Shown here: piece after piece, positions 20,655 to 45,346 of the stretch
How the letters are laid out: every line of letters starts with the position of its first letter
How positions within the stretch are numbered: position 1 is the first letter of the stretch
NCBI RefSeq assembly: GCF_000016165.1
Contig: NC_009253.1
Coordinates: 902,332-966,331, forward strand
DNA length: 64,000 bases
Direction of reading: 5' to 3'
DNA from: Desulforamulus reducens MI-1
GTDB taxonomy: Bacteria; Bacillota; Desulfotomaculia; Desulfotomaculales; Desulfotomaculaceae
The notes under the pieces: model-generated
What the model was told of the DNA's origin: nothing
Seen by the model: the letters and a program-made list of their open reading frames with translations, nothing else
The model's database searches: none
Position numbers and translations under genes: made by a program

Positions 20655-20820
20655 GGGAGTTATAAACGATAAATACTTATAGTCCAAGGAACCTTTTATT
20701 TAGTTGACGGTGAACTACCACCATCCGGTTTTCTGTTTTCTTCACAAACTACGTCATTGTACCATCTGCGGGAATTGCTACGTCCCAAATGGGTACTCCC
20801 CATTTTACAATAATTAAGTG

Positions 20821-23810: not shown

Positions 23811-23822
23811 TTATATCTACTC

Positions 23823-25340
23823 CTAACGCATCTTTAAATCGTAGGGTGTTTGCTTAAATGTAATCCCTAATTCACGTAGGCGAGCTTCACCTAAACGTGT
23901 AGCTTCACCAAATATAACTTTCTCACCATCATAGGGAGGTAGAATAGCTAAAAGTTTGTTAGTTAGTACGTTACCACCATTGGGACGTTTATCTCCAAGT
24001 ATGCCGTTGTATAGAAGATAATAAGCTACATTATTATGAATTCCTAGAAGTGGTAAATCAGCCTGCCCTTGATAAGGTATTTTAGTTTCAGTGAACCATA
24101 TATGGGCGGCAAGGGCCTGGAACTTAACAGAAGAGTTCAAATGGCCATCACTGTCAAAGACTGGCTCACCGAGGCGGTAAAAACGGAAACCGCCACCACC
24201 TTGCCAATCTACAGGATTAGAAATACCCCCTTGTTCTCCCTCTACTACTTTTTGGAGTCGAGGTACTACGTGCGTGACTGCTTGTTCTCCCATTTCCACG
24301 CCAATATATCGCCGCCCCATTTTGTGAGCAACAGCTGCAGTAGTTCCAGATCCTAAAAATGAATCCATTATAAGATCCCCAGGGTTTGTTGCGATGTGAA
24401 TTATTCTTTGAATAAGTCGTTCAGGCTTTGGTGTGTCAAAGGCCTTGATCTTACCAAAAAGTGCATGAATCTCTTTTTTTGCCTCATCTGTATGACCAAC
24501 TTCTTCCGAAGGCCACCATGTCCAGGGGGCTACACCAGGCACTTGCCAGATGTATCTTATGATGTTAGGCTGGCTATTTCCAGTTTTCCCAAAATAAATG
24601 CGGCCTTTTGCAAGCAAGTCTTCATAGGTAGCTTTTGAAATTCCCCAGCATCGTCCTTTTGGTGGCTTATGTACTTTTCCTGTTGGTGTAATTACCTCAT
24701 AGTATTGTTCTGGAGTTGCATGGCCTTCCTGTGCAGTCATTGGAACTGGTCTCCAACGCCCTAATGGATCATTATTTGGATTCCTGTACACCTTTGCTTG
24801 CTTTTCAGTAATCGGAACCATGTTCCTTGTTTTTTTGAATAAATCTGGATTCTTTGCATAAGTAAAAATATATTCATGAACATCGCCAATAGCCTCTCGA
24901 TTTTCACGGGAATAACGTTTTTGCCAAACATTACACGCAATAAATCTCTTTCGACCAAAAATTTCATCCATAATAACCTTTAAATATGCGGCTTCGCTAT
25001 CGTCAATAGACACCCAGATACTGCCGTCTTGACTTAAAAATTCTCTTAGCAATTCCAACCGGGGGTATATCAGTTGTAACCATTGTGAGTGTTCGAGGTT
25101 GTCGTCATAATGTTCAAAGGCTGCTCCTATGTTATACGGCGGGTCAATGTATATACACTTAACTTGACCTGCAAAATAGGGTAACAAGGCCTTGAGAGCC
25201 TCTAAGTTGTCCCCTTGAATTATCATATTTGGTGTATTATCTCCGTAGCTGTATTGCTGATCCTCCTCCAACAGTCTAAAGGGTATTTTATTAGCAATCG
25301 TTAATGTTTTGTCACGATCAAGCCAATGTAATATTGGCAT
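23823..25340 (-). CDS. mod: Type III R-M adenine methyltransferase, Mod subunit
   Basis: About 505 residues. ATG 25340 is chosen because GGAGG lies just before it; the frame opens further to 25379. Beta-class N6-adenine methylase order: the catalytic motif CIYIDPPYNIGAAFEHY first, then PGDLIMDSFLGSGTTAAVAH for S-adenosylmethionine. The variable middle region (about 150-290) probably recognises the target site. It acts with the Res subunit encoded downstream. Target sequence cannot be told from the gene. Confidence 0.9.
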   Translation of the reverse strand: MPILHWLDRDKTLTIANKIPFRLLEEDQQYSYGDNTPNMIIQGDNLEALKALLPYFAGQVKCIYIDPPYNIGAAFEHYDDNLEHSQWLQLIYPRLELLREFLSQDGSIWVSIDDSEAAYLKVIMDEIFGRKRFIACNVWQKRYSRENREAIGDVHEYIFTYAKNPDLFKKTRNMVPITEKQAKVYRNPNNDPLGRWRPVPMTAQEGHATPEQYYEVITPTGKVHKPPKGRCWGISKATYEDLLAKGRIYFGKTGNSQPNIIRYIWQVPGVAPWTWWPSEEVGHTDEAKKEIHALFGKIKAFDTPKPERLIQRIIHIATNPGDLIMDSFLGSGTTAAVAHKMGRRYIGVEMGEQAVTHVVPRLQKVVEGEQGGISNPVDWQGGGGFRFYRLGEPVFDSDGHLNSSVKFQALAAHIWFTETKIPYQGQADLPLLGIHNNVAYYLLYNGILGDKRPNGGNVLTNKLLAILPPYDGEKVIFGEATRLGEARLRELGITFKQTPYDLKMR

Positions 25341-25436
25341 TAAAATTCCTCCAATCACCTTACAGTAGAGTATGGTCATAGTTATTTAGATGAGAAATAA
25401 GTTCTAACGTAATTTGTATTTAACAGTGAATTTCTA

Positions 25437-25475
25437 CGTAAAACTAGTCAGGTAGGTTAATCCTATCCTGGCTAG
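25437..25475 (-). terminator. Probable terminator of the OLD gene
   Basis: CTAGTCAGG (25444-25452) pairs with CCTGGCTAG (25467-25475), with more pairing inside (TAGG/CCTA). Read on the minus strand it is followed by TTTTAC. It lies between the OLD gene and mod. Confidence 0.55.
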
Positions 25476-25494
25476 TTGATTCTGGAGGGGACTT

Positions 25495-25510
25495 GTTTAT
25501 TTAAGTGAAT
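25495..25510. repeat. 16-bp palindrome, degenerate copy P3
   Basis: GTTTATTTAAGTGAAT differs from the consensus at three positions. It lies between the OLD gene stop and the mod start, the same relative place as the perfect copies: just upstream of a minus-strand cargo gene. Confidence 0.5.
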
Positions 25511-25521
25511 AGGGTTGCCAA

Positions 25522-27297
25522 TTAACTAACCTCAAGAGCATTAATTTCAAATATGCTTCTGATAATAGCGGCCCAAACAGGGGGTACGTCATCCCACGAA
25601 GCCCATTTAGAAGTTTCTACAAATGCCCTGTAGGGTTTGTCCGATGTTGGTACTTTGTAATTCAAACAATCCTCTAAACAGTCCTGGAGTGGGAATACCC
25701 TGGATGTATCTCCAACAGCTGCTTCAATATGTTTATTCATTTTTGCCGCACCTTCTGTTTGGCTATCTAAATCATGCATTACAATTGGGTTAATTGAGAG
25801 AGCCTGAAGGTATTTAACTAGAGAAATAATGGCGGCTTTACCCCTTGCCTTTGTAATTTGAAAGGTAGATTTAATTTCCTTCTGGACATCTTCTGGCAAG
25901 AGATTAAGAGTATTCTTAATTGCTATTTGTTCAGAGTCACCCTCTACAATTAGGCATTTCTCCGCAAAGAATACCCTGGAAAGTTCATCGTCAAATGTTT
26001 TTATCATTTTTACATGTTGCTTTTCATCTTCTTCTAGATTCTTGAGGGCTTCCGAAACGCCATAATTAATGGTTGACATGAAGCCATTTTTGTTTAAATA
26101 AACCTTTGTAAGGCTTTGCCATTCCTTTGAAAGATCAATCATCCATGGAGAATGGGTTGTACTAATTATTTGGTTTGACAGACCAAGGCTATAAATTGTG
26201 TCTCGCAACATGTTAGCAGCTGATGGGTGAAGGTAAATTTCTGGCTCTTCAAAGGCAATAATTAAGGGCTTTGTCCTAGTCTCTTTTTTTGCTTTCAATT
26301 TTGCATGATATTTAAGCATTGAGAAGATTGCCGTTCTTATGAGACCAGTACCTTGTCTAGTGGCATCAGTGTTAACATTTGAATACATTTCTACAGAGTA
26401 TTTTGGTTTAAGTATCTCCGTTAGGCCCTGTAAAGAAGGATTTATATGAATGCCACAGTTAGGGAAAACGTCTCCAATTATATTATTAACTTCAGAGCAA
26501 AGAACTTTAATAAGTGATTCATCTGTATCTGGAGACATTTGCTTCTGAAGTTCATTAAGGTTTTCTTGAATATCTTTAGCGAGCTGGTTATCTGCGAGTA
26601 TATCCTCAAAAATATAACCAAGGCACTCACCTAGAAGAGTTTTGTTGCTATCGGCTTTTCCTACGTCATCAGAATTGGCGTAAGAAGGAATATACAATAA
26701 TCTCGGTAGTTTTGAATTCACGTTTGAGGGTGCCCCGCCAGGATTTTTGAACAGTTGTGGTTCTGCTTCCATATCCCATTCAATTGCTCCTTCAATTTTA
26801 AATTCCCATTCATTGGGTAATTTTTTGTTTTCTACTTTTTTTACTCCTAGTGATTCTTGGATTTGTTCCTCGGTTAAGCCAACCCCTAGGAGATCTGTGT
26901 AGGTTTTAACTTTGTCAAATGGTTCTACTATTTGATAAGGATATAAAAAGGTTTCTATGACTGGTTTTGTTGTATTTGAAAGGGTATACGTCTTTTTATA
27001 AAAAAATTGGCCGTTAATTACTCTACCTTTAAATCCTCGGCTATTGGCAGTTTCTGGGTCAATATCACTAAACCAGCCGCATATTTCTATTGTTTGGCAC
27101 CTGTTGCCATCAGGGAGGAGTCTAAAATCATCCGGCTTAATAACATCTTCCTTTAATGAGAGTAATGCATCGATAGCGCGTAAAATTGAGCTTTTCCCGT
27201 AATTATTTGGCCCAATGATAAATGATGCAGGGCTAAGGTTTATTTCAGCATGTTCTACCCTTCTGAAATTTTTAATCTCTACTTTTGATAGTTTCAT
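25522..27297 (-). CDS. OLD-family ATPase with TOPRIM nuclease domain
   Basis: 591 residues. N-terminal ABC-type ATPase: Walker A IGPNNYGKSSILRAI (residues 29-43), signature region TDATRQGTGLIRTA, Walker B LIIAFEEPEIYLHPSA. C-terminal TOPRIM: CLIVEGDSEQIAI (Glu) and NPIVMHDLDSQ (D-x-D). OLD proteins are antiphage nucleases acting alone or with a UvrD-like helicase; no helicase gene is next to it, so this is not a Gabija pair. It starts 26 bp after palindrome P4 and has ACGGAGG before the ATG. It is an isolated defence cassette between palindromes P3 and P4. Confidence 0.85.
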   Translation of the reverse strand: MKLSKVEIKNFRRVEHAEINLSPASFIIGPNNYGKSSILRAIDALLSLKEDVIKPDDFRLLPDGNRCQTIEICGWFSDIDPETANSRGFKGRVINGQFFYKKTYTLSNTTKPVIETFLYPYQIVEPFDKVKTYTDLLGVGLTEEQIQESLGVKKVENKKLPNEWEFKIEGAIEWDMEAEPQLFKNPGGAPSNVNSKLPRLLYIPSYANSDDVGKADSNKTLLGECLGYIFEDILADNQLAKDIQENLNELQKQMSPDTDESLIKVLCSEVNNIIGDVFPNCGIHINPSLQGLTEILKPKYSVEMYSNVNTDATRQGTGLIRTAIFSMLKYHAKLKAKKETRTKPLIIAFEEPEIYLHPSAANMLRDTIYSLGLSNQIISTTHSPWMIDLSKEWQSLTKVYLNKNGFMSTINYGVSEALKNLEEDEKQHVKMIKTFDDELSRVFFAEKCLIVEGDSEQIAIKNTLNLLPEDVQKEIKSTFQITKARGKAAIISLVKYLQALSINPIVMHDLDSQTEGAAKMNKHIEAAVGDTSRVFPLQDCLEDCLNYKVPTSDKPYRAFVETSKWASWDDVPPVWAAIIRSIFEINALEVS

Positions 27298-27322
27298 TAT
27301 TTAACCTCCGTAAACTGTTAAC

Positions 27323-27338
27323 GTTCACTTAAGTGAAA
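27323..27338. repeat. 16-bp palindrome, copy P4
   Basis: GTTCACTTAAGTGAAA, one mismatch. On the minus strand it forms the end of an immA remnant (codons S-L-K-stop lie in it) and it is 26 bp upstream of the OLD gene. Confidence 0.75.
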
Positions 27339-27475
27339 ACAGCTTCTTAAAGCAACTGCCATTTGAGTTCTTGAACTCCTCTGTAACTAAGAAATAATTA
27401 GCCAGCTCTTTGTTTGTTAACTGATAATTATTTATCAATTCTTTAAATTCTTTATCTGGTACCAGGAAATTAACT
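27326..27475 (-). pseudogene. C-terminal remnant of an ImmA/IrrE-like gene
   Basis: Minus-strand translation reads VNFLVPDKEFKELINNYQ, then LTNKELANYFLVTEEFK, very similar to the ends of the other three ImmA-like genes (for example FLIPDEEFKKL, LTNSELASYFKVTEEFI at 38886). The N-terminal part and the metal site are missing; the NERD gene occupies the place. The frame stops inside palindrome P4. Confidence 0.7.
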
Positions 27476-27504
27476 GAAAAAATAACATGGTGTAACCAAA
27501 TCAT

Positions 27505-28326
27505 TTACTCAATTAGATATTTTATAAAATACCCTAGTTCTTTCTTAATGGTTTTTTCAAAATCAAATGGCTCCTGATACTTTAGGATAGTGTTTTCAAT
27601 AGAATCTAAATTTAAGAAGGTATCTACTTTAGATGATGACGATATTTCATAAATTGTCTTTCCTACTTCATCAAGGGTAATTAGCTTAGTTTTATGTGGT
27701 ACTTTTAGGTTTTCTAAACGATACTCTCCTCTTGGATCCGTAAGTACCACTAAGGACCAAACATCTGTAGAAAAACCATTATTATATAATAAACTTTTAA
27801 TGAATTTGCAATGATATTCATTCTGGGCGATTGGACTCCTTGTGTTTACCCATTTCTTAAATTTAAGTGAGTACCATTTTCCATCTTTATCAACATAATA
27901 AGAAGCCCGGTTTTTAATTTCAACACAGATAACTACCTTTGGGAGAATGATTAATGCATCAATTTGTGATTTTTCACCATCTGGTGTGATTAAATCAAGA
28001 TCCGTAAGTCTTTTATGTTTTATATTTAATGAATCTAGTTTATAGAATAACTGTTCTCCTTCCCACCCTTTCTTTTGAGTAGAAATGTATTTTTTAAGGT
28101 GTTTTGCTATATGAAAATGAAACCAACCAAGAGGTAATCCTATAAATGCTAAGGAACTAGTTACAATTAATTCTAGTAAGGAATGGTTACTAGAGAATAA
28201 GAATGAAAGAATAGAAATTGCTCCATAAAAAAGTAATACCACACCTGAGGCCGTAAGGGCTAACCATAGAATTGTTAAAAAAGAAAACTTTTTCAAGTAT
28301 GAATTGCTTATATACTTTTTAAACAT
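27505..28326 (-). CDS. NERD-domain membrane protein
   Basis: 273 residues. Two membrane helices at the N-terminus (about residues 14-45 and 52-75) are followed by a NERD nuclease-related domain: KGWEGEQLFYKL (G-x-x-G-E), LDLITPDGEKSQIDALIILP (Asp) and VVICVEIKNRAS (E-x-K). These are the conserved residues of PD-(D/E)xK-type nucleases. NERD proteins occur in defence islands; the function here is not known. The ATG follows AATGGAGGAATTAA and lies 65 bp from palindrome P5, with an immA remnant on its other side. Confidence 0.75.
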   Translation of the reverse strand: MFKKYISNSYLKKFSFLTILWLALTASGVVLLFYGAISILSFLFSSNHSLLELIVTSSLAFIGLPLGWFHFHIAKHLKKYISTQKKGWEGEQLFYKLDSLNIKHKRLTDLDLITPDGEKSQIDALIILPKVVICVEIKNRASYYVDKDGKWYSLKFKKWVNTRSPIAQNEYHCKFIKSLLYNNGFSTDVWSLVVLTDPRGEYRLENLKVPHKTKLITLDEVGKTIYEISSSSKVDTFLNLDSIENTILKYQEPFDFEKTIKKELGYFIKYLIE

Positions 28327-28390: not shown

Positions 28391-28406
28391 GTTCACTTAA
28401 GTGAAC
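28391..28406. repeat. 16-bp palindrome, copy P5
   Basis: GTTCACTTAAGTGAAC, perfect. It overlaps the last codons of the split immA gene (S-L-K-stop) and precedes the NERD gene on the minus strand. Confidence 0.8.
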
Positions 28407-28584
28407 AACAGAGATGTTTCAGTTTTATGAATTCTTTAGTTACTTGAAAATATTTTGCAAGTTGTTTATCTATAAAACCTGCTCCGCACAATTTTTTAAA
28501 TTCCCTGTCTGAAATTAGAAATTTTACCGCCCAAAGCTTGGCTCTCAGTTCATCAATACTCAAATTTATTAAATCAGACAGAGT

Positions 28585-30138
28585 CACTAGCGTTGCATAA
28601 AAACTAATGTATAAATCAAAAGTCAATAAATGGAAAATTGCATTGTATTATTTTGTAATAATTTGGTTGTATACACCAATTACCTTATTTCTCTTTGTGC
28701 TAAAGGAACAACCACTTAAGAGGTAGTCCTTTATCCACATTTTTCAGATCATGTAATTCCTAAGCTATTATCGGGTCGTAAGTTAGATCATCCAGGTGTT
28801 CTGCCTCACCTTGTAGTACCTGTACTAACGTAATGTTGTAGACTTTTTCATGGTCTATACACCGTCGTCCTCTTGAACTTTGGCCTGACTTGAGCTGGAG
28901 TTTTCGTACAAACTCAGAGAATTCTATGTAAAGGCATGTGCTAAGCAACATCTTAATTTTTAGTAACGGACCCTCGTAACCGGTTTTCATTTTAAGCAAT
29001 ATCATTAAACAGTAGGTAATCAGCGCTATCAGTAATTGGTTTTCCACAGCCTGCTGGCTTAGACCATAGAAGTGTTTTACACAGAGATGTTGTTTGATCC
29101 ACTTAAAGAATAATTCGATTTGCCAGCGGTAGCGATATATATAGCTTATTTCCTCGGCACTTAACTCATAGTCATTGGTAATGATAATTACAGGCTTACC
29201 TTCGGTATCCTCTGTTTCTATTAGCCGCAAGGGGTATTGCATCTTGGTTATGCCGTCTTTGCCTAAGATTACCTTTTGGTCTTTTTTGATTAAGCTATCT
29301 GGGTTTGTTGGAAATTCCTCTAATGTTTCAACTATTGCATTACTCTTTAGACGACTAACAAATCTGGTACCGTTATTACAATATTTGTCGAATTTCTTGT
29401 AATCCAGGTAGCCACGGTCAAAAACGTTTAGGGCATCTTCTTCTACAACCAAGGCATCCATTTGTGTTTTGTCAGCAGGTTTGGCCGGTTTAATTATTGC
29501 TTTGTCTGGTAGAACCCCTTGTTCAAACAGTTGGATACGGAGGTGTAATTTAACTCCGCTTTTGGTTTTTCTGAACTCTGCCCATCTATATCGGGAAAGA
29601 CAAAGGCTTATGGTTGAAGAGTCTATCAGATAAATACGACCTAATTCATGCCTTATGGATTTAAAACCGATTTGGGTTCCAAACTGATGGACTATATCAG
29701 AAAACAGAGACTGAATTAATTCAGGAGATAACTCTCTTAATTTACGGGATAACTGTGAAGCACTAATTGAATCTAAACCTACTGCTGATCTAAAATTATC
29801 ATTGTTCAAGCTGTTACTGATATGGCGTAGACCTTTAAGTTGCTCTAACTGTGCATAGGAAATCATTTGAATTAGTTTGACAACGGTTAACTTCTTCGTG
29901 TAAGCATCAACTTCTGATTCTTTGACATTGCTTAAAAATTTTTCATTATAAATTGCTTGAAATAGTTGATTATATGTGGATTTACTGGTATCCTTGTCCA
30001 TGCGTGTTCTCCTTATTTTTGAGATTATGGACAGGACTACCTATTATATCTCAATTATAAGGAGATTTTTTATTTATTCGTAGACAAAATATTCCATTAT
30101 ACTTGACAAAACAAAAATTTTTTTATGCAACACTAGTG
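28585..30138 (-). mobile_element. IS4-family insertion sequence, copy 2
   Basis: 1554 bp with ends CACTAGCGTTGCAT and (inverted) CACTAGTGTTGCAT. A 9-bp target duplication AGACAGAGT flanks it (28576-28584 and 30139-30147). It interrupts the immA-Z gene. Confidence 0.92.
28760..30001 (-). CDS. IS4-family DDE transposase, copy 2
   Basis: 413 residues with YLIDSSTISLC, NVFDRGYLDYKKF and the YRYRWQIELFFKWIKQH signature. Identical in translation to copy 3 at 41413-42654 and slightly different from copy 1. Intact, so it is probably active. The element's left end adds an artificial start (MTFDLYISFYATL) to the interrupted gene beside it; that frame is not a real gene start. Confidence 0.92.
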   Translation of the reverse strand: MDKDTSKSTYNQLFQAIYNEKFLSNVKESEVDAYTKKLTVVKLIQMISYAQLEQLKGLRHISNSLNNDNFRSAVGLDSISASQLSRKLRELSPELIQSLFSDIVHQFGTQIGFKSIRHELGRIYLIDSSTISLCLSRYRWAEFRKTKSGVKLHLRIQLFEQGVLPDKAIIKPAKPADKTQMDALVVEEDALNVFDRGYLDYKKFDKYCNNGTRFVSRLKSNAIVETLEEFPTNPDSLIKKDQKVILGKDGITKMQYPLRLIETEDTEGKPVIIITNDYELSAEEISYIYRYRWQIELFFKWIKQHLCVKHFYGLSQQAVENQLLIALITYCLMILLKMKTGYEGPLLKIKMLLSTCLYIEFSEFVRKLQLKSGQSSRGRRCIDHEKVYNITLVQVLQGEAEHLDDLTYDPIIA

Positions 30139-30308
30139 AGACAGAGTGCTTTCAGGTCTGTTTTTAAACAAAATATTAGATTTAGCACTAGTAAAATGGT
30201 GGCCGATTTCTTCTGCTAAGGTACAGAGAAGTTTAACAGGGTCTGATTTAAGCTCAATGTTTAAAATAATAAAGCTCTCATCCCCTTTTTTTTATAAAGA
30301 CCATTTAT

Positions 30309-32150
30309 CTTAGATACGGAAAGTAAAGTTTAAAAACCCAATAACATCAAGGTCTAATAACCATTTTTTGTTGTAAAAAATTTGACAGAAAAAGAGGGTA
30401 CACCGCCCCTTCTACGGAATTGTTTAGCGTCCAAACAAAACATTCCAAAAGGATGGTGACCCTCTGAAATGATGGTATCACAATTTATTACCACAAATCA
30501 ACTTGAAACTTTGACCCGTCAACAACGACGTGATTTGGAACGTAAATATCAGAAGAAATTACATTCTCTTCAACGCCTGACTAGCAAAAGTGATCTTCCG
30601 ATTAGCTTTGACAATACTTCTGTAACTGCTTATGGAAATTTTGGCATACTAGAGGCGTTTAAGCAAGCCATTGATTTCAAGGGTATGCTTAAAGGGGTTT
30701 CCCTTAAGCGACATCATAACTGTAAATACTCTGATACAGGGTTGTTAGATACAATCATTGATGCCCTTTCCTTGGGATTATTACGGTTTTCTCATATGAA
30801 TGCTCTGCAAACTGACCCTGGATACCAGAAAATTAAAGAAGTAACACAAGTGCCTGACGAAAGCACTTTGCGGAACTTTCTATCTCTTATCTGTGAGCAG
30901 GAGGCATTAAACCAATTGCCTCTGGTGAATCAGGAAATGCTGTCCTTAAAGGCCAAATCCGATCAACCCCGTGAAGTCTGGCTAGATATTGATGACAGTG
31001 TCCTCACTGTTTTTGGGAAACAGGAAGGATCAAAAGTCGGTTACAATCCTCGGTACCACGGGAGGCCTTCCTACAAGGTAAAGGTAGCATTTATCTCTGG
31101 AACTTGCGAACTAGTCAATGCCGGGTTATATAGTGGGAACGTCGCCAGCAATGGCCAATTTATGGAATTCCTTAAAGAGACATTAGAGATCTTAGCTGCC
31201 CAGAATATCCTCGTAAAAGGTATCCGCATAGATAAAGGTTTCTTTGATGAGGATAACTTTGCCTACCTGGAAGAACAGGGCATCGAGTATATTTGTAAGG
31301 CTAAACTCACCAGTAATATGAGAAAGGTCATTAAATACCTTGATGACCAGAACCAGTGGCAGTCTTTGAGCAACCATTATGCTGCAGCAGAAATCACCAT
31401 TCCATTACCTAAATGGTCCAAAGCCCGCAGGTTTGTATTTATCCGTGAAACTCAAGAACCTAAGGCATGCGGCGATCAACTTAACTTTGACCTGAAGACA
31501 TTCGACTACCAGGTGATAATTACTTCTAGTGACGAGCACAACCCAGAGGAGGTATGGCACGAATACAATAAGCGTTGCAATATCGAAAACAAAATTGATG
31601 AACTCAAGGTTGGCTTAGGCTTTGAAAAAATGAGCCAAGCAGAGATGGATCGAAACAAAGCCTTTATGTGGCTCAAAGTATTATCGTATAACCTTCTCAA
31701 CTGGTTTCGCTTGGCCTTATTGGATGGCAAAGACAGCCGTGCTGAAGTGCCCACTATCCGCCGTAAAATACTGAATGTACCTGGGAACATTGTAGGCAAC
31801 AACCGTTACCGCCATATAAAGTTAGCCCCTAATCCCTGGTTGCAAAAGGCATTGAAGAATGCTAAGGAAAAATTACAAGAATTCCTTTGCATACAGGCAT
31901 GGGTTGCCGTAAGTTCAGGTTAAACAAACTCGAGACTAATCGAATTAATCAAATATGATATCACTGATCCAAAAAAGATGGGTCTTATTAACTGCACCCT
32001 AAAATCTAGCTTTTTATTGGAGTATACAGCAGTGATAACGCTTTCCGAGTGATTAGGCATTCAGGCAACATAGCAGCTCAAGCGGTATAACCAAAAATTG
32101 GTTATTTTGGAGCTTTAACTTGGCTCGGAAAGTTACTTTCCGATTTGAAG
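30309..32150 (+). mobile_element. IS1380-family insertion sequence
   Basis: Ends are imperfect inverted repeats, CTTAGATACGGAAAGTAA at 30309 and the inverse CTTCAAATCGGAAAGTAA at 32150, flanked by the 5-bp duplication TTTAT (30304-30308 and 32151-32155). It interrupts immA-Z between the codons for KDKNI and NGLYKK. Length is 1842 bp, with about 230 bp of non-coding DNA after the transposase. Confidence 0.8.
30469..31923 (+). CDS. IS1380-family transposase
   Basis: 484 residues. The first half has SFDNTSVTAYGNFGILEAF and TLRNFLSLICEQEALN; the DDE core is visible as EVWLDIDDSVLTVFGKQEGS (D-D), GIRIDKGFFDEDNFAYLEEQ (Asp), and YNKRCNIENKIDELKVGLG (Glu), the Y-x(n)-E-N-x-I-x-E-L-K pattern of IS1380/IS1380-like enzymes. 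The frame is complete. There is no strong ribosome site before the ATG, which is common for transposases. Confidence 0.88.
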   Translation: MMVSQFITTNQLETLTRQQRRDLERKYQKKLHSLQRLTSKSDLPISFDNTSVTAYGNFGILEAFKQAIDFKGMLKGVSLKRHHNCKYSDTGLLDTIIDALSLGLLRFSHMNALQTDPGYQKIKEVTQVPDESTLRNFLSLICEQEALNQLPLVNQEMLSLKAKSDQPREVWLDIDDSVLTVFGKQEGSKVGYNPRYHGRPSYKVKVAFISGTCELVNAGLYSGNVASNGQFMEFLKETLEILAAQNILVKGIRIDKGFFDEDNFAYLEEQGIEYICKAKLTSNMRKVIKYLDDQNQWQSLSNHYAAAEITIPLPKWSKARRFVFIRETQEPKACGDQLNFDLKTFDYQVIITSSDEHNPEEVWHEYNKRCNIENKIDELKVGLGFEKMSQAEMDRNKAFMWLKVLSYNLLNWFRLALLDGKDSRAEVPTIRRKILNVPGNIVGNNRYRHIKLAPNPWLQKALKNAKEKLQEFLCIQAWVAVSSG

Positions 32151-32372
32151 TTTATGTTTTTATCCTTAAATGGATAGTAGTAAATGTAAATATCTTCATT
32201 TTTTACTAGAGCCAATAAAGCGATTAATCTGCTGTCCAATGTAAAGTCTCTTTTATACACAAAAATACAGTGCTGTAAGAAAATTGAAAAAGGATAAAAA
32301 CTAAGAAAACCACCTGACTGGTGGTTAATGCTCGAATTTTATCTAACAATGTCGTATTGTCTGATAATTGAA

Positions 32373-32408: not shown

Positions 32409-32643
32409 TTTATTCTGACTGGTTATTATTGCTTTGGTCTTTTCTCTTTTGCTCCATCGCTGCTTTTATAGCCCTTTGAATGTCTTCAGCCTCTTCTGGA
32501 GTGGGTAGATGAAATAACTGGTCACCTTCGTAGCTGGCTACAAGAACTTCGTCATCTTCGTTAGTTGGTGTTTCTTCTTGGGAAAGGATATCTCTTAAAG
32601 CCTCTAGGATCTGAATTCTTTCTTCTAATGATATAGGCTTACC
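32393..32643. repeat. 251-bp direct repeat of 45755-46005 (shared 3' end of two long XRE genes)
   Basis: The sequence coding for the last 80 or so residues of the long XRE protein and its terminator arm recurs at 45755-46005 with no difference I saw. Similarity ends abruptly after the codons for GKPISLEERIQ; upstream the two genes differ strongly. The sharp edge points to recombination that swaps the regulator core. Confidence 0.8.
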
Positions 32644-33030
32644 AGCAATGGTAATTGCTTCTTTTGAATTAAATAAGTCCAAGACCTCATTGCTTAAAGT
32701 ATTAGATATAGATTGATTGACTAATCTAAATTCAGAAATAATTTTTTTTATAGCTAATAATTGAGAAGAACGAAGATCTCTTAAATCATATATTAATGAT
32801 TTTAAATCATCTGATACTACTCTTAATTGTTTGCATTCTTCTGCAAAAAAATCTGCAAGCTCGATTCCCAAAGAAGTGCAAATTCTCTCCAAAGTATCTA
32901 AGGATGGCTTAGTATTATTTGCTTCAATCTTTGTTATTAATGAGGGATCTACACCTATCATTTTTGCTAATTTTCTTTTACTAATTCCTAATTTTTCACG
33001 AAAAAATGTAACCCGTTTCCCATAATTCAT
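32410..33030 (-). CDS. Long XRE-family regulator, module 1
   Basis: 206 residues. The N-terminal helix-turn-helix is VTFFREKLGISKRKLAKMIG, then VDPSLITKIEANNTKPSLDT. The C-terminal part has a conserved acidic region (EDDEVLVASYEGDQLFHLPT, then PEEAEDIQRAIKAAMEQKRK) shared by all long XRE proteins in the array. It is the probable repressor of the divergent small XRE gene at 33163; the 130-bp spacer holds their promoters and operators. An ImmA-like peptidase gene (now split) follows downstream, as in ImmR-ImmA switches of conjugative elements. Confidence 0.85.
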   Translation of the reverse strand: MNYGKRVTFFREKLGISKRKLAKMIGVDPSLITKIEANNTKPSLDTLERICTSLGIELADFFAEECKQLRVVSDDLKSLIYDLRDLRSSQLLAIKKIISEFRLVNQSISNTLSNEVLDLFNSKEAITIAGKPISLEERIQILEALRDILSQEETPTNEDDEVLVASYEGDQLFHLPTPEEAEDIQRAIKAAMEQKRKDQSNNNQSE

Positions 33031-33147: not shown

Positions 33148-33162
33148 AATATTGAGGTGGTG

Positions 33163-33390
33163 ACTTTGATTCAATTAGGTCATAAAATTAAAAATCTAAG
33201 AGAGAAAAAAGGTCTCTCGCAAGTCCAACTGGCACATATGGTTGGGGTAACCAATTCTCTTATTTGTAAGATCGAAACGGGTCAGACCAGTGGGTCTATC
33301 CATACCCTTAAAAAAATTGCAAATAAGCTTGATGTTAGTGTAAATATTTTTTTTGAGGATGACTCATCCGTTAAAGTGGCAGGAGAATAG
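33163..33390 (+). CDS. Small XRE-family regulator, module 1
   Basis: About 75 residues, a single helix-turn-helix (NLREKKGLSQVQLAHMVG, then VTNSLICKIETGQTSGS) with a short acidic tail. TTG 33163 is 7 nt after GAGGTGG; GTG 33157 is possible. Divergent from the long XRE gene, like a Cro/CI arrangement. Downstream on the same strand lies the 1-kb conserved tract with a small membrane protein and a hammerhead ribozyme. Confidence 0.75.
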   Translation, partial: TLIQLGHKIKNLREKKGLSQVQLAHMVGVTNSLICKIETGQTSGSIHTLKKIANKLDVSVNIFFEDDSSVKVAGE

Positions 33391-38810: not shown

Positions 38811-38861
38811 AAAACATTTCTCCTTTTGGTATGATATAGTTATTCCACCCAGAAATTATTT

Positions 38862-38877
38862 GTTCACTTAAGTGAAC
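38862..38877. repeat. 16-bp palindrome, copy P6
   Basis: GTTCACTTAAGTGAAC, perfect, 9 bp after the stop of immA-X and 52 bp before the ParB-like gene, all on the minus strand. Confidence 0.8.
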
Positions 38878-38885
38878 GCCCAGCA

Positions 38886-39321
38886 TTAAAGCAATTGCCA
38901 CTTTATTTCAATGAATTCTTCTGTAACTTTAAAATAACTGGCTAGTTCGCTATTAGTAAGCTTGTATTTTGTTAATTTTTTAAACTCTTCATCTGGTATC
39001 AGAAAATTAACTGCCCAAATACGGGCTTTAAGTTCGTCTATGGCCATGTTTAATGATTTCGCAAGGGTAATTGTAATTAAGGAGTAGTCTTTAGCTAATA
39101 TGTTTGACTTTGCCTTGGTAATATGGTGGCCAATTTCCTCTGCCATGGTGCATAGATACAGAACTGGGTCCGTGCGGAGTTTTGCGTTCAGTAAGATAAA
39201 AGCCTCCCCATTATCGTTTTTTATATAACCCATTTTGGTTAGGACTTATAAAGGGGTAGTAGCATACGAAGATATCGTCTTCTTTTACGATGGCAAATAA
39301 AAATGCTAACCTTTTGTCCAT
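38886..39321 (-). CDS. ImmA/IrrE-like metallopeptidase, needs a frameshift (immA-X)
   Basis: Frame one starts at ATG 39321 (MDKRLAFLFAIVKEDDIFVC) and stops just after GLYKKR. The second frame continues from the same codons as NDNGEAFILLNAKLRTDP, TMAEEIGHHITKAKSNIL and FLIPDEEFKKL to the stop at 38886. Together they give a complete ImmA-like protein of about 145 residues. The shift must happen at A6 (39217-39222). ImmA peptidases cleave XRE repressors to derepress the element; the metal site reads E-E-I-G-H-H. It may be a programmed shift or a mutation. Confidence 0.65.
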
Positions 39322-39472
39322 ATATATGCAGAGCCTCAAGATGCAGGTTGTGTAATAACAGTTAAATACACAAATGTAAGAATGTAGAAGAAGGGTTAAA
39401 ACTAGAAAAACCACCCACTGGTGGTAATTGCTCGAATAATATCAAAAATTGTCGTTTTGTCTAATGACGGAA

Positions 39473-39506
39473 GAAACTACTATCCCGGTTTGGGTATAGT
39501 AGTTTC
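39473..39506 (-). terminator. Terminator of the truncated long XRE gene
   Basis: GAAACTACTATCCC (39473-39486) pairs with GGGTATAGTAGTTTC (39492-39506). Same stem family as at 32373 and 43305. A second small stem (ACCACCCACTGGTGGT, about 39408-39424) lies between it and immA-X. Confidence 0.65.
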
Positions 39507-39508
39507 TT

Positions 39509-39925
39509 TTATTCGCCACGTTCTTTTTTCTTTTGTTCCATGGCAAACTCTATGGCTTTTTCGATGTCTTCAGCTTCTTCCGGTGTAGGTATATGAAACA
39601 GGTGGTCGCCCTGGTAGCTGGCCACGAGAACATCATCTTCCTCATGGTCCTGGTCTTCGCCAGGAGCAAGAATCTCTTTTAAAGCCTCTAATATTTTTAC
39701 TCTTTCCACCAATGATACAGGCTTACCTGCGATAGTAATAGGGCTCTTTGTATTAAATAAGTCCAAGAGTTCATTACTTGAGTTTTTTGTAGGGGGTGTA
39801 TTACTAACTTGCTGGTTAATTATTGAAAATTCGGACACAATGTTTTTTATTAAAGAGACTTGTGTAAAACTTAGATTTTGCATTTCTGAAATTATTGCTT
39901 TTTCACACGAGTGACGAAGTAATTT
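39509..39925 (-). pseudogene. Long XRE regulator lacking its DNA-binding domain
   Basis: Minus-strand sequence from about 39920 reads QNLSFTQVSLIKNIVSEFSI, then ITIAGKPVSLVERVKILEAL and the usual acidic end (DDVLVASYQGDHLFHIPTPE). The helix-turn-helix is gone: upstream it runs directly into the end of immA-Y. A deletion between two neighbouring modules explains this. Confidence 0.75.
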
Positions 39926-40363
39926 ACTTGATCTGGCGGCGAAGAAGGATAAAATCAATAGTCACCTGAAAATACCGTGCCAGCTCTTCATCTGATGGGT
40001 TGTCCAGGATTATAAGAGCCTCATTGAATTCCTCCAGTGGCACCAGGAACTTGACTGCCCATATTTGGCCCTTTATCTCATCGATTGTCATTTGGGCCTG
40101 GCCCCTGGCAGAACGGTGGCTATTTAATAAGTTAGAATACATTCCCACTATGTGATGGCCAATCTCTTCTGCAAGGGCGCATCGATACCGTATTGGATCT
40201 GATAGGAGGCGACTATCCAAAATAATGTATGTATCTTTCCCTTTTTTTTACAAGCGGCATTTCTGTTGGGGTTTATAAAATGGTGATAGGAAATAAAAAA
40301 ATTACGCTTTTTTGCGATGGCCTCTAAGGCTATTAACTTTGAGTCATTAAGCAAGAGTAACAA
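39924..40363 (-). CDS. ImmA/IrrE-like metallopeptidase, needs a -1 frameshift (immA-Y)
   Basis: Frame one reads LIALEAIAKKRNFFISYHHF to NAACKKKGK. The -1 frame then reads KDTYIILDSRLLSDPIRY, ALAEEIGHHIVGMYSN and WAVKFLVPLEEFNE to the stop at 39924. The switch lies at A8 followed by G (40242-40249), which in frame one is read as AAA AAA AAG, that is, the slippery heptamer A AAA AAG. Frame one alone would stop at 40148. The gene ends at a deletion joint with an XRE remnant. The start of frame one is not certain. Confidence 0.65.
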
Positions 40364-40564
40364 TGATAAATGCTATTCCTAAATATACATTTTCTCTAAA
40401 AACTGTAATTTATTAAAAAGGCTATAAAACCAGAAAACTGTTCTATAACCAGCAAAAAATGTACCCAGCGGTCGCAGTAAGAACAATGTTTTTTCTGTCA
40501 AATACTTTCTCCGCCGGGGGGGAATATTAATTGATATTGTACGATAGGAATAGCCAACCTATAT

Positions 40565-40876
40565 TTATTGAGTTAATGCATACACTATAAATCCAGATAA
40601 AATATTTAAACCCAGTTGTTTTACTAAATTTAATCCTTTTTCTCCAAATCTTTTTGCGGATTGTTTAGTTTGATCCACTTTTTTAGCCCGAACATCTTTT
40701 AACATTTCAGATGCAATCTTACGAAGTTCTTTGTCGTCACAGTCAATTAAAAACCTATCAAGATTTTGGGTTAGACCTTCCCAATCGACGAAGTTGGATG
40801 AAATATTAATTACTGACCCACCTATATGACCAGTATTAACAACCCCATTGTCATTGACAATGTAGTTATTTTTCAT
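40565..40876 (-). CDS. GVVNTG-motif protein with a C-terminal membrane helix
   Basis: 103 residues from the ATG at 40876, which overlaps the stop of the upstream gene. The N-terminus reads NGVVNTGHIGGSVINISS, a short repeat-like beta motif also found at the very end of the partner protein. Then follows a helical region (DKELRKIASEMLKDVRAKKV) and a hydrophobic end (LGLNILSGFIVYALTQ). The shared motif in both partners suggests they interact through it. A truncated copy of the pair lies at 14356-14693. Function unknown. Confidence 0.6.
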   Translation of the reverse strand: MKNNYIVNDNGVVNTGHIGGSVINISSNFVDWEGLTQNLDRFLIDCDDKELRKIASEMLKDVRAKKVDQTKQSAKRFGEKGLNLVKQLGLNILSGFIVYALTQ

Positions 40877-41237
40877 TAGATACCCCTCCACCAACATAAC
40901 CAGTATTCACAACACCATTTTCGTTTTTAATAGTATTGTTACTGAAATCAATATAATAATTATTTGCTTGTCCTTCTAAGCCATATTCATTAATTGTCTG
41001 AGCAATAAACGAAGCTGCGCGATTAAGAAAATCAATATTTTCCGATTTTAAAATATAACGTCCGCCCGAATTCATTTCAATATGTAAAGCATAACGATTT
41101 TTTTTGTTATACTCATACACTTTATAAATAGAATATCCACCAACAGCAATACTACATAAGCCAACCACCAGCATAAACGACATTTGTGAAGATGAAAAAA
41201 ATGTAAGTCCAACGAGTATAAGTATAATAGACCAAAT

Positions 41238-42791
41238 CACTAGCGTTGCATAAAAACTAATGTATAAATCAAAAGTCAATAAATGGAAAATTGCATTGTA
41301 TTATTTTGTAATAATTTGGTTGTATACACCAATTACCTTATTTCTCTTTGTGCTAAAGGAACAACCACTTAAGAGGTAGTCCTTTATCCACATTTTTCAG
41401 ATCATGTAATTCCTAAGCTATTATCGGGTCGTAAGTTAGATCATCCAGGTGTTCTGCCTCACCTTGTAGTACCTGTACTAACGTAATGTTGTAGACTTTT
41501 TCATGGTCTATACACCGTCGTCCTCTTGAACTTTGGCCTGACTTGAGCTGGAGTTTTCGTACAAACTCAGAGAATTCTATGTAAAGGCATGTGCTAAGCA
41601 ACATCTTAATTTTTAGTAACGGACCCTCGTAACCGGTTTTCATTTTAAGCAATATCATTAAACAGTAGGTAATCAGCGCTATCAGTAATTGGTTTTCCAC
41701 AGCCTGCTGGCTTAGACCATAGAAGTGTTTTACACAGAGATGTTGTTTGATCCACTTAAAGAATAATTCGATTTGCCAGCGGTAGCGATATATATAGCTT
41801 ATTTCCTCGGCACTTAACTCATAGTCATTGGTAATGATAATTACAGGCTTACCTTCGGTATCCTCTGTTTCTATTAGCCGCAAGGGGTATTGCATCTTGG
41901 TTATGCCGTCTTTGCCTAAGATTACCTTTTGGTCTTTTTTGATTAAGCTATCTGGGTTTGTTGGAAATTCCTCTAATGTTTCAACTATTGCATTACTCTT
42001 TAGACGACTAACAAATCTGGTACCGTTATTACAATATTTGTCGAATTTCTTGTAATCCAGGTAGCCACGGTCAAAAACGTTTAGGGCATCTTCTTCTACA
42101 ACCAAGGCATCCATTTGTGTTTTGTCAGCAGGTTTGGCCGGTTTAATTATTGCTTTGTCTGGTAGAACCCCTTGTTCAAACAGTTGGATACGGAGGTGTA
42201 ATTTAACTCCGCTTTTGGTTTTTCTGAACTCTGCCCATCTATATCGGGAAAGACAAAGGCTTATGGTTGAAGAGTCTATCAGATAAATACGACCTAATTC
42301 ATGCCTTATGGATTTAAAACCGATTTGGGTTCCAAACTGATGGACTATATCAGAAAACAGAGACTGAATTAATTCAGGAGATAACTCTCTTAATTTACGG
42401 GATAACTGTGAAGCACTAATTGAATCTAAACCTACTGCTGATCTAAAATTATCATTGTTCAAGCTGTTACTGATATGGCGTAGACCTTTAAGTTGCTCTA
42501 ACTGTGCATAGGAAATCATTTGAATTAGTTTGACAACGGTTAACTTCTTCGTGTAAGCATCAACTTCTGATTCTTTGACATTGCTTAAAAATTTTTCATT
42601 ATAAATTGCTTGAAATAGTTGATTATATGTGGATTTACTGGTATCCTTGTCCATGCGTGTTCTCCTTATTTTTGAGATTATGGACAGGACTACCTATTAT
42701 ATCTCAATTATAAGGAGATTTTTTATTTATTCGTAGACAAAATATTCCATTATACTTGACAAAACAAAAATTTTTTTATGCAACACTAGTG
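41238..42791 (-). mobile_element. IS4-family insertion sequence, copy 3
   Basis: 1554 bp with the same ends as copies 1 and 2. A 9-bp duplication AGACCAAAT lies on each side (41229-41237 and 42792-42800). It interrupts the GVVNTG-motif membrane-protein gene. Confidence 0.92.
41413..42654 (-). CDS. IS4-family DDE transposase, copy 3
   Basis: 413 residues, the same translation as copy 2 (28760-30001), with the complete DDE and YRYRWQIELFFKW signature. The identity of copies 2 and 3, each with a perfect target duplication, shows that both are recent. Confidence 0.92.
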   Translation of the reverse strand: MDKDTSKSTYNQLFQAIYNEKFLSNVKESEVDAYTKKLTVVKLIQMISYAQLEQLKGLRHISNSLNNDNFRSAVGLDSISASQLSRKLRELSPELIQSLFSDIVHQFGTQIGFKSIRHELGRIYLIDSSTISLCLSRYRWAEFRKTKSGVKLHLRIQLFEQGVLPDKAIIKPAKPADKTQMDALVVEEDALNVFDRGYLDYKKFDKYCNNGTRFVSRLKSNAIVETLEEFPTNPDSLIKKDQKVILGKDGITKMQYPLRLIETEDTEGKPVIIITNDYELSAEEISYIYRYRWQIELFFKWIKQHLCVKHFYGLSQQAVENQLLIALITYCLMILLKMKTGYEGPLLKIKMLLSTCLYIEFSEFVRKLQLKSGQSSRGRRCIDHEKVYNITLVQVLQGEAEHLDDLTYDPIIA

Positions 42792-43123
42792 AGACCAAAT
42801 AGAATAGGGTTTACCGATCATTTGACCAACCCATATTTGTGATATGTTGGAAATTTGGATAAGAGATTGTTCAGTCTTAAATACATTACGTTGTATATCT
42901 AAAACGACATTTTCTAAAACCTTATTTTGTTCAGAGAACTTATCAGTAATCATAAATACACCTACCTATCTTTTTGATCTCCATTAACGTCTTCTTACCC
43001 TTTTGACCTTTAGCTCAGTATGTTTTGGATATTTTTTAATATGGCAACGCTAATTTGTTCCCCCTTCCCTGCAAATCTCCGTAATCTGGTTTTAAGGGTT
43101 TTATTTTGATACAATAGTTAAGC

Positions 43124-43341: not shown

Positions 43342-43895
43342 TTTATTTCTTGTGTTTCCTATTTTTTTGTTGTTCAGCAAGCTTAAATGCAAGCTCAATA
43401 TCCTCCACTTCTTCTTGGGTGGGGATGTGAGCGAACCGGTTGCCCTGGTAGCTGGCTGCTATAACCTCATTATTTTCGTAATCTAGGTCCTCATCAGCCG
43501 GTAGCTTTTCTTTAATTAATTCTAATATCTCAATCCTATCCTCCAACGAAAGGGGGACACCGGCTGCGGATAGGACGGTGTCTTTTCTGCCAAATACGTC
43601 TAAGAGGTCGATATGTAAAACTCCAGAAGCAGATTCTCTATTGGCAATAGTTGATAACGATTTTTTGGCTGCCAATTCAAGTTCTTCATTAGTTAATGAG
43701 AATTCAGTAGCAATATTTTTAATCAGTGAAACCTGAGACGGCTTTAGGTTTTGAACTTCATTAACAAGACTGTTTATGTCGCTAGAATAGGGACTTGGCA
43801 TAAAACCTTCGTTAAAAAATTCTGCTACCGACAACCCAAGTCCACTGCAAATACGTTCAATTACATCGAAAGTGGGTTGACGTTGGCCACTTTCT
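43324..43895. repeat. 572-bp tandem repeat of 44324-44895
   Basis: The two tracts, exactly 1000 bp apart, carry the C-terminal two thirds of two long XRE genes and differ at only a few bases. Past 43895/44895 (at the codons for SGQRQPT) similarity falls sharply until both resume at the fourth codon or so of the small XRE genes (44157/45155). Confidence 0.85.
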
Positions 43896-43999
43896 ACATA
43901 GCTTAAATGTGATTGAGCAACTCCGGAACGTCTGGATAACTCATTCATACTTAAGCCCTGATATGTTCTCAATTTTTTTATTCTACTACCTATATCCAT
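43343..43999 (-). CDS. Long XRE-family regulator, module 2a
   Basis: 218 residues from ATG 43999, chosen for TTAGGAG upstream. Helix-turn-helix: IKKLRTYQGLSMNELSRRSG, VAQSHLSYVESGQRQPT. The rest (ICSGLGLSVAEFFNEGFMP, then DLLDVFGRKDTVLSAAG and the acidic end) is nearly identical to module 2b. Only the DNA-binding head and operator differ, so the two repressors should have different targets. Divergent from a small XRE gene that has lost its end. Confidence 0.85.
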   Translation of the reverse strand: MDIGSRIKKLRTYQGLSMNELSRRSGVAQSHLSYVESGQRQPTFDVIERICSGLGLSVAEFFNEGFMPSPYSSDINSLVNEVQNLKPSQVSLIKNIATEFSLTNEELELAAKKSLSTIANRESASGVLHIDLLDVFGRKDTVLSAAGVPLSLEDRIEILELIKEKLPADEDLDYENNEVIAASYQGNRFAHIPTQEEVEDIELAFKLAEQQKNRKHKK

Positions 44000-44076
44000 G
44001 AATTTACTCCTAACAGAGGTCAATCTGTATAAAGATTATAACATAAAAAAATTACCATTAATTATATGCATGCAGA

Positions 44077-44105
44077 TTGACAAGCGTTCTATATACGTAT
44101 AAGAT
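44077..44105 (+). promoter_or_regulatory. Promoter of small XRE gene, module 2a
   Basis: TTGACA (44077-44082), 17-bp spacer, TAAGAT (44100-44105). The spacer holds CTATATACGTATAAG, a palindromic core (ATACGTAT) that is likely the module's own operator; a second near copy (TTATATGCATGCA) lies at 44062-44074. Confidence 0.6.
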
Positions 44106-44144
44106 AATATCAATTGAGATAACTAGGGAGGGGTGAAAGTTTTT

Positions 44145-44323
44145 GTGTTGGCAACAAACCTTAAACAACTAAGAGAACAAAAAGGTCTTTCTCAAAATCA
44201 GTTAGCAAAGCTAGCCAATGTTCCTCAATCGGCTATTCATTATATTGAAAATGGGGAACGGAACCCTGGATTACAAACAGTAGAGAAATTAGCCGATGGT
44301 CTTGGTGTAACGCTATCAAAATT
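44145..44323 (+). pseudogene. Small XRE regulator truncated at its end, module 2a
   Basis: GTG 44145 follows GGGAGGGGTG. It encodes NLKQLREQKGLSQNQLAKLA, VPQSAIHYIENGERNPGLQ and so on up to LGVTLSKL, identical to the small XRE of module 2b. Then it jumps into the terminator of module 2b, and the frame continues antisense to the next gene. The joint marks the unequal recombination that made the tandem repeat. The helix-turn-helix is whole, so a product could still work. Confidence 0.7.
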
Positions 44324-44342
44324 ACTGGGTATAGTAGTTTCT

Positions 44343-44999
44343 TTATTTCTTGTGTTTCCTATTTTTTTGTTGTTCAGCAAGCTTAAATGCAAGCTCAATA
44401 TCCTCCGCTTCTTCTTGGGTGGGGATGTGAGCGAACCGGTTGCCCTGGTAGCTGGCTGCTATAACCTCATTATTTTCGTAATCTAGGTCCTCATCAGCCG
44501 GTAGCTTTTCTTTAATTAATTCTAATATCTCAATCCTATCCTCCAACGAAAGGGGGACACCGGCTGCGGATAGGACGGTGTCTTTTCTGCCAAATACGTC
44601 TAAGAGGTCGATATGTAAAACTCCAGAAGCAGATTCTCTATTGGCAATAGTTGATAACGATTTTTTGGCTGCCAATTCAAGTTCTTCATTAGTTACTGAG
44701 AATTCAGTAGCAATATTTTTAATCAGTGAAACCTGAGACGGCTTTAGGTTTTGAACTTCATTAACAAGACTATTTATGTCGCTAGAATAGGGACATGGCA
44801 TAAAACCTTCGTTAAAAAATTCTGCTACCGACAACCCAAGTCCACTGCAAATACGTTCAATTACATCGAAAGTGGGTTGACGTTGGCCACTTTCTATATA
44901 ACTAAGAGAAGACTGCCCTACGCCTGAACGTCGGGAAAGCTCGTTCATACTTAATCCTTGTTGTGTTCTAAGTATTCTTATCCGGGCGCCAATATCCAT
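44343..44999 (-). CDS. Long XRE-family regulator, module 2b
   Basis: 218 residues from ATG 44999 (GAGGGAG upstream). Helix-turn-helix: IRILRTQQGLSMNELSRRSG, VGQSSLSYIESGQRQPT. The remainder is almost the same as module 2a. The third helix (QSSLSYIE against QSHLSYVE) and the operator differ. It probably represses the small XRE gene at 45143 and itself. No immA gene directly follows; module 2a lies downstream. Confidence 0.85.
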   Translation of the reverse strand: MDIGARIRILRTQQGLSMNELSRRSGVGQSSLSYIESGQRQPTFDVIERICSGLGLSVAEFFNEGFMPCPYSSDINSLVNEVQNLKPSQVSLIKNIATEFSVTNEELELAAKKSLSTIANRESASGVLHIDLLDVFGRKDTVLSAAGVPLSLEDRIEILELIKEKLPADEDLDYENNEVIAASYQGNRFAHIPTQEEAEDIELAFKLAEQQKNRKHKK

Positions 45000-45075
45000 A
45001 ATATACTCCCTCAAGGTATTATCCTTATTCGGATTATAACATAAAAGATAGGGAAACGATTATCCTAAAACGGGG

Positions 45076-45104
45076 TTGACTACCTATCCTATATAGGATA
45101 AAAT
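45076..45104 (+). promoter_or_regulatory. Promoter and operator of small XRE gene, module 2b
   Basis: TTGACT (45076-45081), 17-bp spacer, TAAAAT (45099-45104). The perfect palindrome TATCCTATATAGGATA (45085-45100) fills the spacer. Half-sites recur at 45060-45067 (TTATCCTA) and 45117-45122 (AGGATA). A repressor bound here would block RNA polymerase. Confidence 0.75.
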
Positions 45105-45142
45105 TTTATCAATAGAAGGATAGGTCTGGAGGTGACTTATTT

Positions 45143-45346
45143 TTGCTGGCAGTAAACCTTAAACAACTAAGAGAACAAAAAGGTCTTTCTCAAAATCAGT
45201 TAGCAAAGCTAGCCAATGTTCCTCAATCGGCTATTCACTATATTGAAAATGGGGAACGGAACCCTGGATTACAAACAGTAGAGAAATTAGCCGATGGTCT
45301 TGGTGTAACGCTATCAAAATTAGTCGAAAGCAAAGAAAGTCAATAA
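45143..45346 (+). CDS. Small XRE-family regulator, module 2b
   Basis: 67 residues, TTG start after GGAGGTGAC. A single helix-turn-helix, LREQKGLSQNQLAKLANVPQ, then SAIHYIENGERNPGLQTVEK and a short tail LSKLVESKESQ. Except for the first residues it is identical to module 2a, although the promoters differ. Divergent partner of the long XRE at 44343. Confidence 0.8.
   Translation: MLAVNLKQLREQKGLSQNQLAKLANVPQSAIHYIENGERNPGLQTVEKLADGLGVTLSKLVESKESQ

Follow-up and report, generated by a model that had tools for sequence, protein, structure and literature searches.

Frame breaks at lysine codons in a clade of ImmA-type (M78) protease genes suggest programmed recoding in XRE-repressor modules

In the window, the 64,000-nucleotide stretch of the Desulforamulus reducens MI-1 genome analysed here (3,608,104 bases in a single contig), three immA-type genes, immA-X, immA-Y and immA-Z, carry the N-terminal part of an M78 protease (helix 1, strands 1-2) and its catalytic part (strand 3 and the EEIGHH helix) in different reading frames, which join in an A-rich stretch of lysine codons. 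The break is conserved, is confined to one clade with conserved XRE neighbours, and separates two frames that are both under purifying selection; the joined protein is modelled with a confident fold. Judging from the sequences, these ImmA-type genes of XRE-repressor switch modules probably yield their full-length product through programmed recoding, with ribosomal frameshifting on AAA codons as the likeliest form.

Split immA genes and their surroundings in the window

Reading the minus strand at 38850-39460 (immA-X), 39900-40420 (immA-Y) and 30100-30420 (immA-Z) showed that the preliminary description had placed the homopolymers correctly: the T8 runs at 40242-40249 (immA-Y) and 30286-30293 (immA-Z) and the T6 run at 39217-39222 (immA-X) are A8, A8 and A6 on the coding minus strand. 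It was equally right that the first frame of immA-Y and immA-Z reads AAA AAA AAG and needs a -1 shift, that the -1 frame of immA-Y runs into the metal site, and that immA-X, with its A6, needs a +1 shift. The features of the window are as follows.

27325-27504, minus strand: fourth immA remnant, C-terminal part only
28393-28626, minus strand: immA-Z C-terminal piece, past the second IS
30146-30345, minus strand: immA-Z middle piece with the break and EEIGHH, flanked by two IS elements
30286-30293, minus strand: immA-Z shift site TAT AAA AAA AAG GGG, A_AAA_AAG, -1 needed
32102-32260, minus strand: immA-Z first-frame piece (TTG LDSRLIALLALVKNEDIYIYYYPFKDK), truncated by an IS
32410-33030, minus strand: XRE (HTH_3) repressor-like gene, upstream of immA-Z
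33157-33390, plus strand: small Xre gene, divergent, in a Cro-like position
38886-39233, minus strand: immA-X second frame, strand 3 and EEIGHH metal-site helix to the C-terminus
39211-39321, minus strand: immA-X first frame, helix 1 and strands 1-2, ATG start at 39321 (MDKRLAFLFAIVKEDDIFVCYYPFISPNQNGLYKKR*)
39217-39222, minus strand: immA-X shift site TAT AAA AAA CGA TAA, +1 needed, first-frame stop 6 nt past the last Lys codon
39509-39958, minus strand: XRE repressor remnant without HTH domain, between immA-Y and immA-X
39924-40248, minus strand: immA-Y second frame, KKGKDTYIILD...AEEIGHH...QIK*
40148-40363, minus strand: immA-Y first frame, TTG start (LNDSKLIALEAIAKKRNFFISYHHFINPNRNAACKKKG...)
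40242-40249, minus strand: immA-Y shift site TGT AAA AAA AAG GGA, A_AAA_AAG in frame, -1 needed
43343-44023, minus strand: XRE repressor upstream of the immA-Y module (tandem copy at 44343-45014)

At the junctions, the first and second frames read ...NGL TAT AAA AAA CGA TAA and ATA AAA AAC GAT AAT GGG GAG GCT TTT in immA-X, GCT TGT AAA AAA AAG GGA and TTG TAA AAA AAA GGG AAA GAT in immA-Y, and CTT TAT AAA AAA AAG GGG and TTA TAA AAA AAA GGG GAT in immA-Z. Both frames had been described as open in every copy. immA-X and immA-Y carry no lesion besides the break; immA-Z is otherwise dead, split into three pieces by IS transposase genes at 28760-30001 and 30469-31923.

Several further arrangements were seen around these genes. 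The pair of divergent small Xre and XRE repressor genes is tandemly duplicated at 43343-45346 (43343-44023 with 44133-44486, and 44343-45014 with 45143-45346). The ORF of the HTH-less repressor in the gap between immA-Y and immA-X begins inside the end of immA-Y (39900-39958), and this remnant suggests a deletion between adjacent modules. Positions 40866-41279 and 42786-42953 are two halves of one gene, with no function assigned, split by an IS (41413-42654) whose transposase is identical to that at 28760-30001; a 181-aa intact homologue lies in genome G045 (L223:3576-4121). The perfect 16-bp palindrome GTTCACTTAAGTGAAC occurs at window positions 13386, 20639, 28391 and 38862, with a 14-bp core also at 27324. 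Its 7 copies in the 3.6 Mb genome all fall inside about 44 kb around the window, several of them immediately 3' of immA copies, and the core is present in the loci of an uncultured Desulfotomaculum MAG (L219 5579 and 7482) and of G045 (L223 3233); it may be a cassette boundary mark, an operator or a recombination site. The cassette-like stretch 18929-28326 is reminiscent of defence islands: by inspection, it holds an integrase C-terminal fragment at 20205-20543, followed by genes that are helicase/restriction-like (21216-23810), ATPase-like (25999-27297) and nuclease-like (27505-28326).

A protease clade kept out of frame

Joined across the break, immA-X scored 47.5 bits against Pfam PF06114 (Peptidase_M78, IrrE N-terminal-like; residues 16-141, E 1.9e-12, cut-off 22 bits), and the second frame of immA-Y alone reached 29.5 bits; no NCBIfam model matched joined immA-X. 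In an HMM built from 65 single-frame homologues and joined immA-X, the first frame of immA-X aligned to model positions 3-35 and the second to 31-139, and the members from other species gave similar placements (about 3-35 and about 31-138); the first-frame matches of immA-Y, immA-Z and copy a of the MAG (G008a) were marginal, the assignment there being made by similarity to other members. A continuous frame across the protease domain is usual for M78 proteins, and is no criterion of the Pfam family; it is absent here, 9/9 members switching frame at about model position 30-36.

An AlphaFold2 model of joined immA-X, computed with the 65 single-frame homologues, had a mean pLDDT of 91.9 and comprised a helix (3-14), strands at 17-22, 31-36 and 39-45, and a catalytic helix (52-71) that contains the HExxH-like zinc motif EE[IVL]GHH found in 6/6 aligned members; this fold is supporting evidence only, since the family fold may come from the alignment itself. 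In the model, the break lies within the second strand and the strand 2-3 hairpin, so that neither product alone would be predicted to hold a complete sheet. The best Foldseek matches were CapP (7t5t), Deinococcus PprI (8sln) and M. tuberculosis M78-like regulators (6cyy), with E-values of only about 1e-3 or weaker; we take all of these to be members of the M78 protease family.

Relatives were sought in six-frame translations: joined immA-X was the query against the genus, the family and the class (113 genomes), and a catalytic-half profile was run against the class and a sample of 398 genomes from the phylum. Seven further loci were found in five genomes, namely Desulforamulus ruminis (G007, presumably this species), D. 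aquiferis Bs105, the uncultured Desulfotomaculum MAG, Desulforadius tongensis DSM 29799 and G045. Six of the seven are split at the same place, needing +1 in D. ruminis, both tongensis copies (a and b) and G045, and -1 in MAG copy a and D. aquiferis; the seventh, MAG copy b, is decayed, with most of its first half lost and a stop at the site. There are thus nine split loci in six genomes, all broken at about the same model position. Six of these, in five genomes, carry no lesion besides the break (immA-X, immA-Y, MAG copy a, D. ruminis, tongensis copy a and G045), and further damage is present in 4/10 loci (immA-Z, D. aquiferis, MAG copy b and tongensis copy b).

The remaining matches in the class were single long frames, mostly of 150-216 residues, all outside the split clade. 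No single-frame relative inside the clade was found among the 113 class genomes or the 398-genome phylum sample, and no close one among viral contigs, plasmids and phages. The nine split loci formed one clade with support 100 in two trees, with 105 and 25 single-frame homologues as outgroups, with the close relatives G035, G038 and a Thermaerobacter MAG in the second set. All outgroups used were single-frame, and one change from intact to split suffices on the tree; shift direction needs at least two changes, and the in-frame state is never seen. Alignment of homologues, proposed as a check in the preliminary description, showed the frame break to be kept across diverged members, 9/9 being out of frame at one place. 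That description had weighed its proposal against independent mutations in three copies; the break is most simply explained by one origin in the clade.

The neighbours are shared as well. XRE genes adjoin immA in the window, D. ruminis, D. aquiferis and tongensis, and in the relatives a divergent small Xre is followed by an XRE repressor of about 205-225 residues and, in some cases after an uncharacterised gene pair, by the split immA; in G045 and the immA-Y module this pair sits between the XRE genes and immA. The D. aquiferis and tongensis loci also have serine-recombinase-like genes (names assigned by inspection) nearby.

Purifying selection acts on both frames, also between orthologues with the same break. 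immA-Y and MAG copy a both carry the TGT AAA AAA AAG GG site with an identical A8, and between them the first frame has pS 0.62, pN 0.19 and omega 0.17 (synonymous excess, binomial P = 0.0035) and the second pS 0.40, pN 0.12 and omega 0.24 (P = 2e-5). Between D. aquiferis and immA-Z, omega is 0.18 in the first frame and 0.09 in the second. When compared with neutral simulations run with the observed substitution numbers, amino-acid identity in the catalytic frame was far above neutral in all pairs tested, and that in the short first frame reached or exceeded the 99.9th percentile for three pairs, staying slightly below it for immA-X versus D. ruminis. Neutral decay of one frame, which would have counted against a functional break, is thus contradicted, and if the break was inherited by both immA-Y and MAG copy a, selection acted on both frames after it arose.

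Shift sites and rival explanations

The room for the shift is bounded by the last stop of the second frame and the first stop of the first frame, an interval of 11 nt in D. ruminis, 17 nt in G045, 31 nt in immA-Z and MAG copy a, and 35 nt in immA-X; all these intervals overlap at Lys codons. A_AAA_AAG is in phase in 4/4 members needing -1 (immA-Y, immA-Z, MAG copy a and D. aquiferis), and an AAA codon followed by A (AAA_A) is in phase in 5/5 needing +1, where a Lys tRNA could pair again without mismatch one base further downstream; as a +1 context, AAA_A is weak. Over the matching 15 codons, in-phase AAA_A was found near the break in 9/9 split genes versus 14/114 single-frame homologues and A_AAA_AAG in 4/9 versus 0/114, an enrichment that does not represent nine independent events, because the members are few and related, and that is partly expected, given shared ancestry and since such motifs arise when a Lys run loses one base.

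The run itself is A8 in immA-Y, immA-Z, MAG copy a and G045 and A4-A6 in D. ruminis, immA-X, D. aquiferis and tongensis, the D. ruminis site being GTG AAA AGA (only A4) and that of D. aquiferis AGA AAA AAG. A uniform A8 homopolymer signal was accordingly rejected: the conserved A-run anticipated earlier is not family-wide, and the common element is the frame break together with in-phase AAA codons. Nor is a uniform dnaX-like site supported, as both direction and motif vary between members. No downstream RNA structure was both stable and common to the members (z-scores -2.1 to +1.5), leaving dnaX-like stimulators unsupported, and no upstream Shine-Dalgarno-like stimulator was seen in immA-Y; such elements are common in programmed frameshifting and not obligatory. 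The first-frame stop follows closely in immA-X, D. ruminis and G045, ending 6-12 nt past the last Lys codon (TCC_TGA in D. ruminis), and stop-assisted +1 shifting is an alternative in these three. First-frame starts are often TTG. In tongensis copy a (L221 3318-3400), a 12-nt tandem duplication at the shift site (ATGTAAGAAAAA twice) leaves the frame unchanged and gives two copies of the A-rich motif. In E. coli, A_AAA_AAG ranks with the most efficient heptamers in the presence of stimulators, and frameshift-prone heptamers without stimulators shift about 2-10 fold over background (PMC4066793).

Could the breaks instead be independent pseudogenes, each with a recent indel at a mutation-prone A-rich site and a low omega left over from older selection? 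The lesions elsewhere in the four damaged loci, the A8 runs, and the abundance of IS copies and remnants in a region where decay is common around the split immA genes would all fit. Yet the break is the sole lesion in six loci of five genomes, lies at A4-A6 with no long homopolymer in D. ruminis, immA-X, D. aquiferis and tongensis, and belongs to a clade without a single-frame copy in any genome searched, while immA-Y and MAG copy a, sharing the break, are still under purifying selection; we consider this explanation unlikely. Sequencing error, an objection raised in the preliminary description, was rejected as sole cause since the breaks turn up again in independent genomes, and also where the run is A4-A6. 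The short runs bear equally on transcriptional slippage, in which a minority of in-frame mRNAs would be made at the A-run in place of ribosomal frameshifting. RNA polymerase can slip on runs of about A8 length, as in four of the loci, but A4-A6 is too short for efficient slippage, and we give this route very little credence.

Phase variation, with run length in the DNA toggling the protease on and off, would be in keeping with A8 in 4/9 loci and with poly-A variation as a recognised class (PMC3711429). It predicts some in-frame copies, however, whereas 9/9 are in the off state; runs of 4-6 are no usual contingency loci, and run length is the same in immA-Y and MAG copy a despite considerable synonymous divergence, which makes toggling improbable. 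We assign a similarly small chance to separate translation, in which the first peptide and the catalytic chain would each be made from a start of its own (e.g., by translational coupling) and then assemble. The direction of the break would then be irrelevant, as observed, and immA-X, alone among the members, has a second-frame ATG upstream of the break, 17 nt 5' of the site. In 7/9 members, though, a second-frame stop ends at most 5 nt from the end of the last first-frame Lys codon, so that no upstream start is usable, and the first downstream starts, located inside or past strand 3, have no clear Shine-Dalgarno sequence and sit at positions that differ between members. A suitable start is absent in 8/9, only that of immA-X keeping strand 3 whole without an intervening stop, and co-location of stop and start, the signature of coupling used in PMC3711429, is no shared feature.

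Long-standing programmed frameshifting fits the sequences better than pseudogenes, phase variation or two separate ORFs, and is the best remaining explanation. The original proposal of such frameshifting thus survives in part: the displacement of 9/9 clade members at one place, the selection on both frames and the slippery Lys codons speak for it, and the uniform site and the stimulators are not supported.

A proposed switch and its precedents

From these patterns, in which the first-frame start, the break and the selection are read from the sequences, we infer the slippage itself, its ribosomal nature, its rate and its regulatory use, in the following form. Translation would begin at a conserved MD[KRST]-type start and proceed through helix 1 and strands 1-2, up to the Lys codons at the hairpin between strands 2 and 3. 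Without slippage, a non-catalytic peptide of roughly 35-70 residues would be released as the default product, and a minority of ribosomes slipping -1 on A_AAA_AAG or +1 on AAA_A, the latter possibly aided by the nearby stop codon in immA-X, D. ruminis and G045, would complete the protease. The arrangement suggests that the enzyme is made only when ribosomes slip. The complete protease would cleave the neighbouring XRE repressor and so induce the element, and recoding might serve to keep the protease scarce or to couple it to translational stress; low frameshift efficiency would suit a switch that must stay off. The ratio of short peptide to complete protease might be set in this way, as suggested in the preliminary description.

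We lean, narrowly, towards the broader reading that a clade of mobile-element switch proteases has stayed out of frame over deep divergence, with shift direction changing and never a return to a single frame, so that repressor cleavage would require slipping ribosomes and might respond to the state of translation. If so, M78 repressor-cleaving proteases would join the few bacterial genes under recoding control, the induction of an integrated element would be tied directly to ribosome behaviour, and such genes annotated as pseudogenes may be functional. Flips of direction with the out-of-frame state kept would show that this state is itself selected.

The protease family and the recoding principle are each known, but not together. 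No report of recoding in ImmA, IrrE or M78 genes was found in the main texts of the openly readable literature, and neither the GeneTack paper (PMC3711429) nor a 2016 recoding review mentions ImmA or DUF955. GeneTack clusters frameshifted genes partly by shift direction (PMC3711429), so that a family of mixed direction could be missed.

With ImmA of ICEBs1 and other M78 (PF06114) repressor proteases, the clade shares the Pfam family, the metal-site motif, and the adjoining XRE repressor and divergent small Xre; the single-frame homologues examined are continuous ORFs, as are the larger proteins CapP (7t5t), PprI (8sln) and 6cyy, whereas the clade is two-frame in all nine members holding both halves. 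The in-frame A_AAA_AAG at the break in immA-Y, immA-Z, MAG copy a and D. aquiferis resembles dnaX and IS-type -1 frameshifting (PMC4066793), but, unlike in dnaX, a stimulatory stem-loop was not found and five members need +1. A first-frame stop near the last Lys codon in immA-X, D. ruminis and G045 likewise recalls prfB and antizyme-type +1 shifting at a stop, though the near stop is absent from the tongensis copies and there is no conserved CTT_TGA-like site. A direct precedent for the proposed logic is FseA (msi172/msi171) of ICEMlSymR7A, a transcriptional activator that triggers a mobile element and is produced only by ribosomal frameshifting, here a +1 shift that joins two ORFs (PMC5009743). 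The present genes would apply that logic to another protein and another chemistry: a metalloprotease, split inside its catalytic fold, with both +1 and -1 members.
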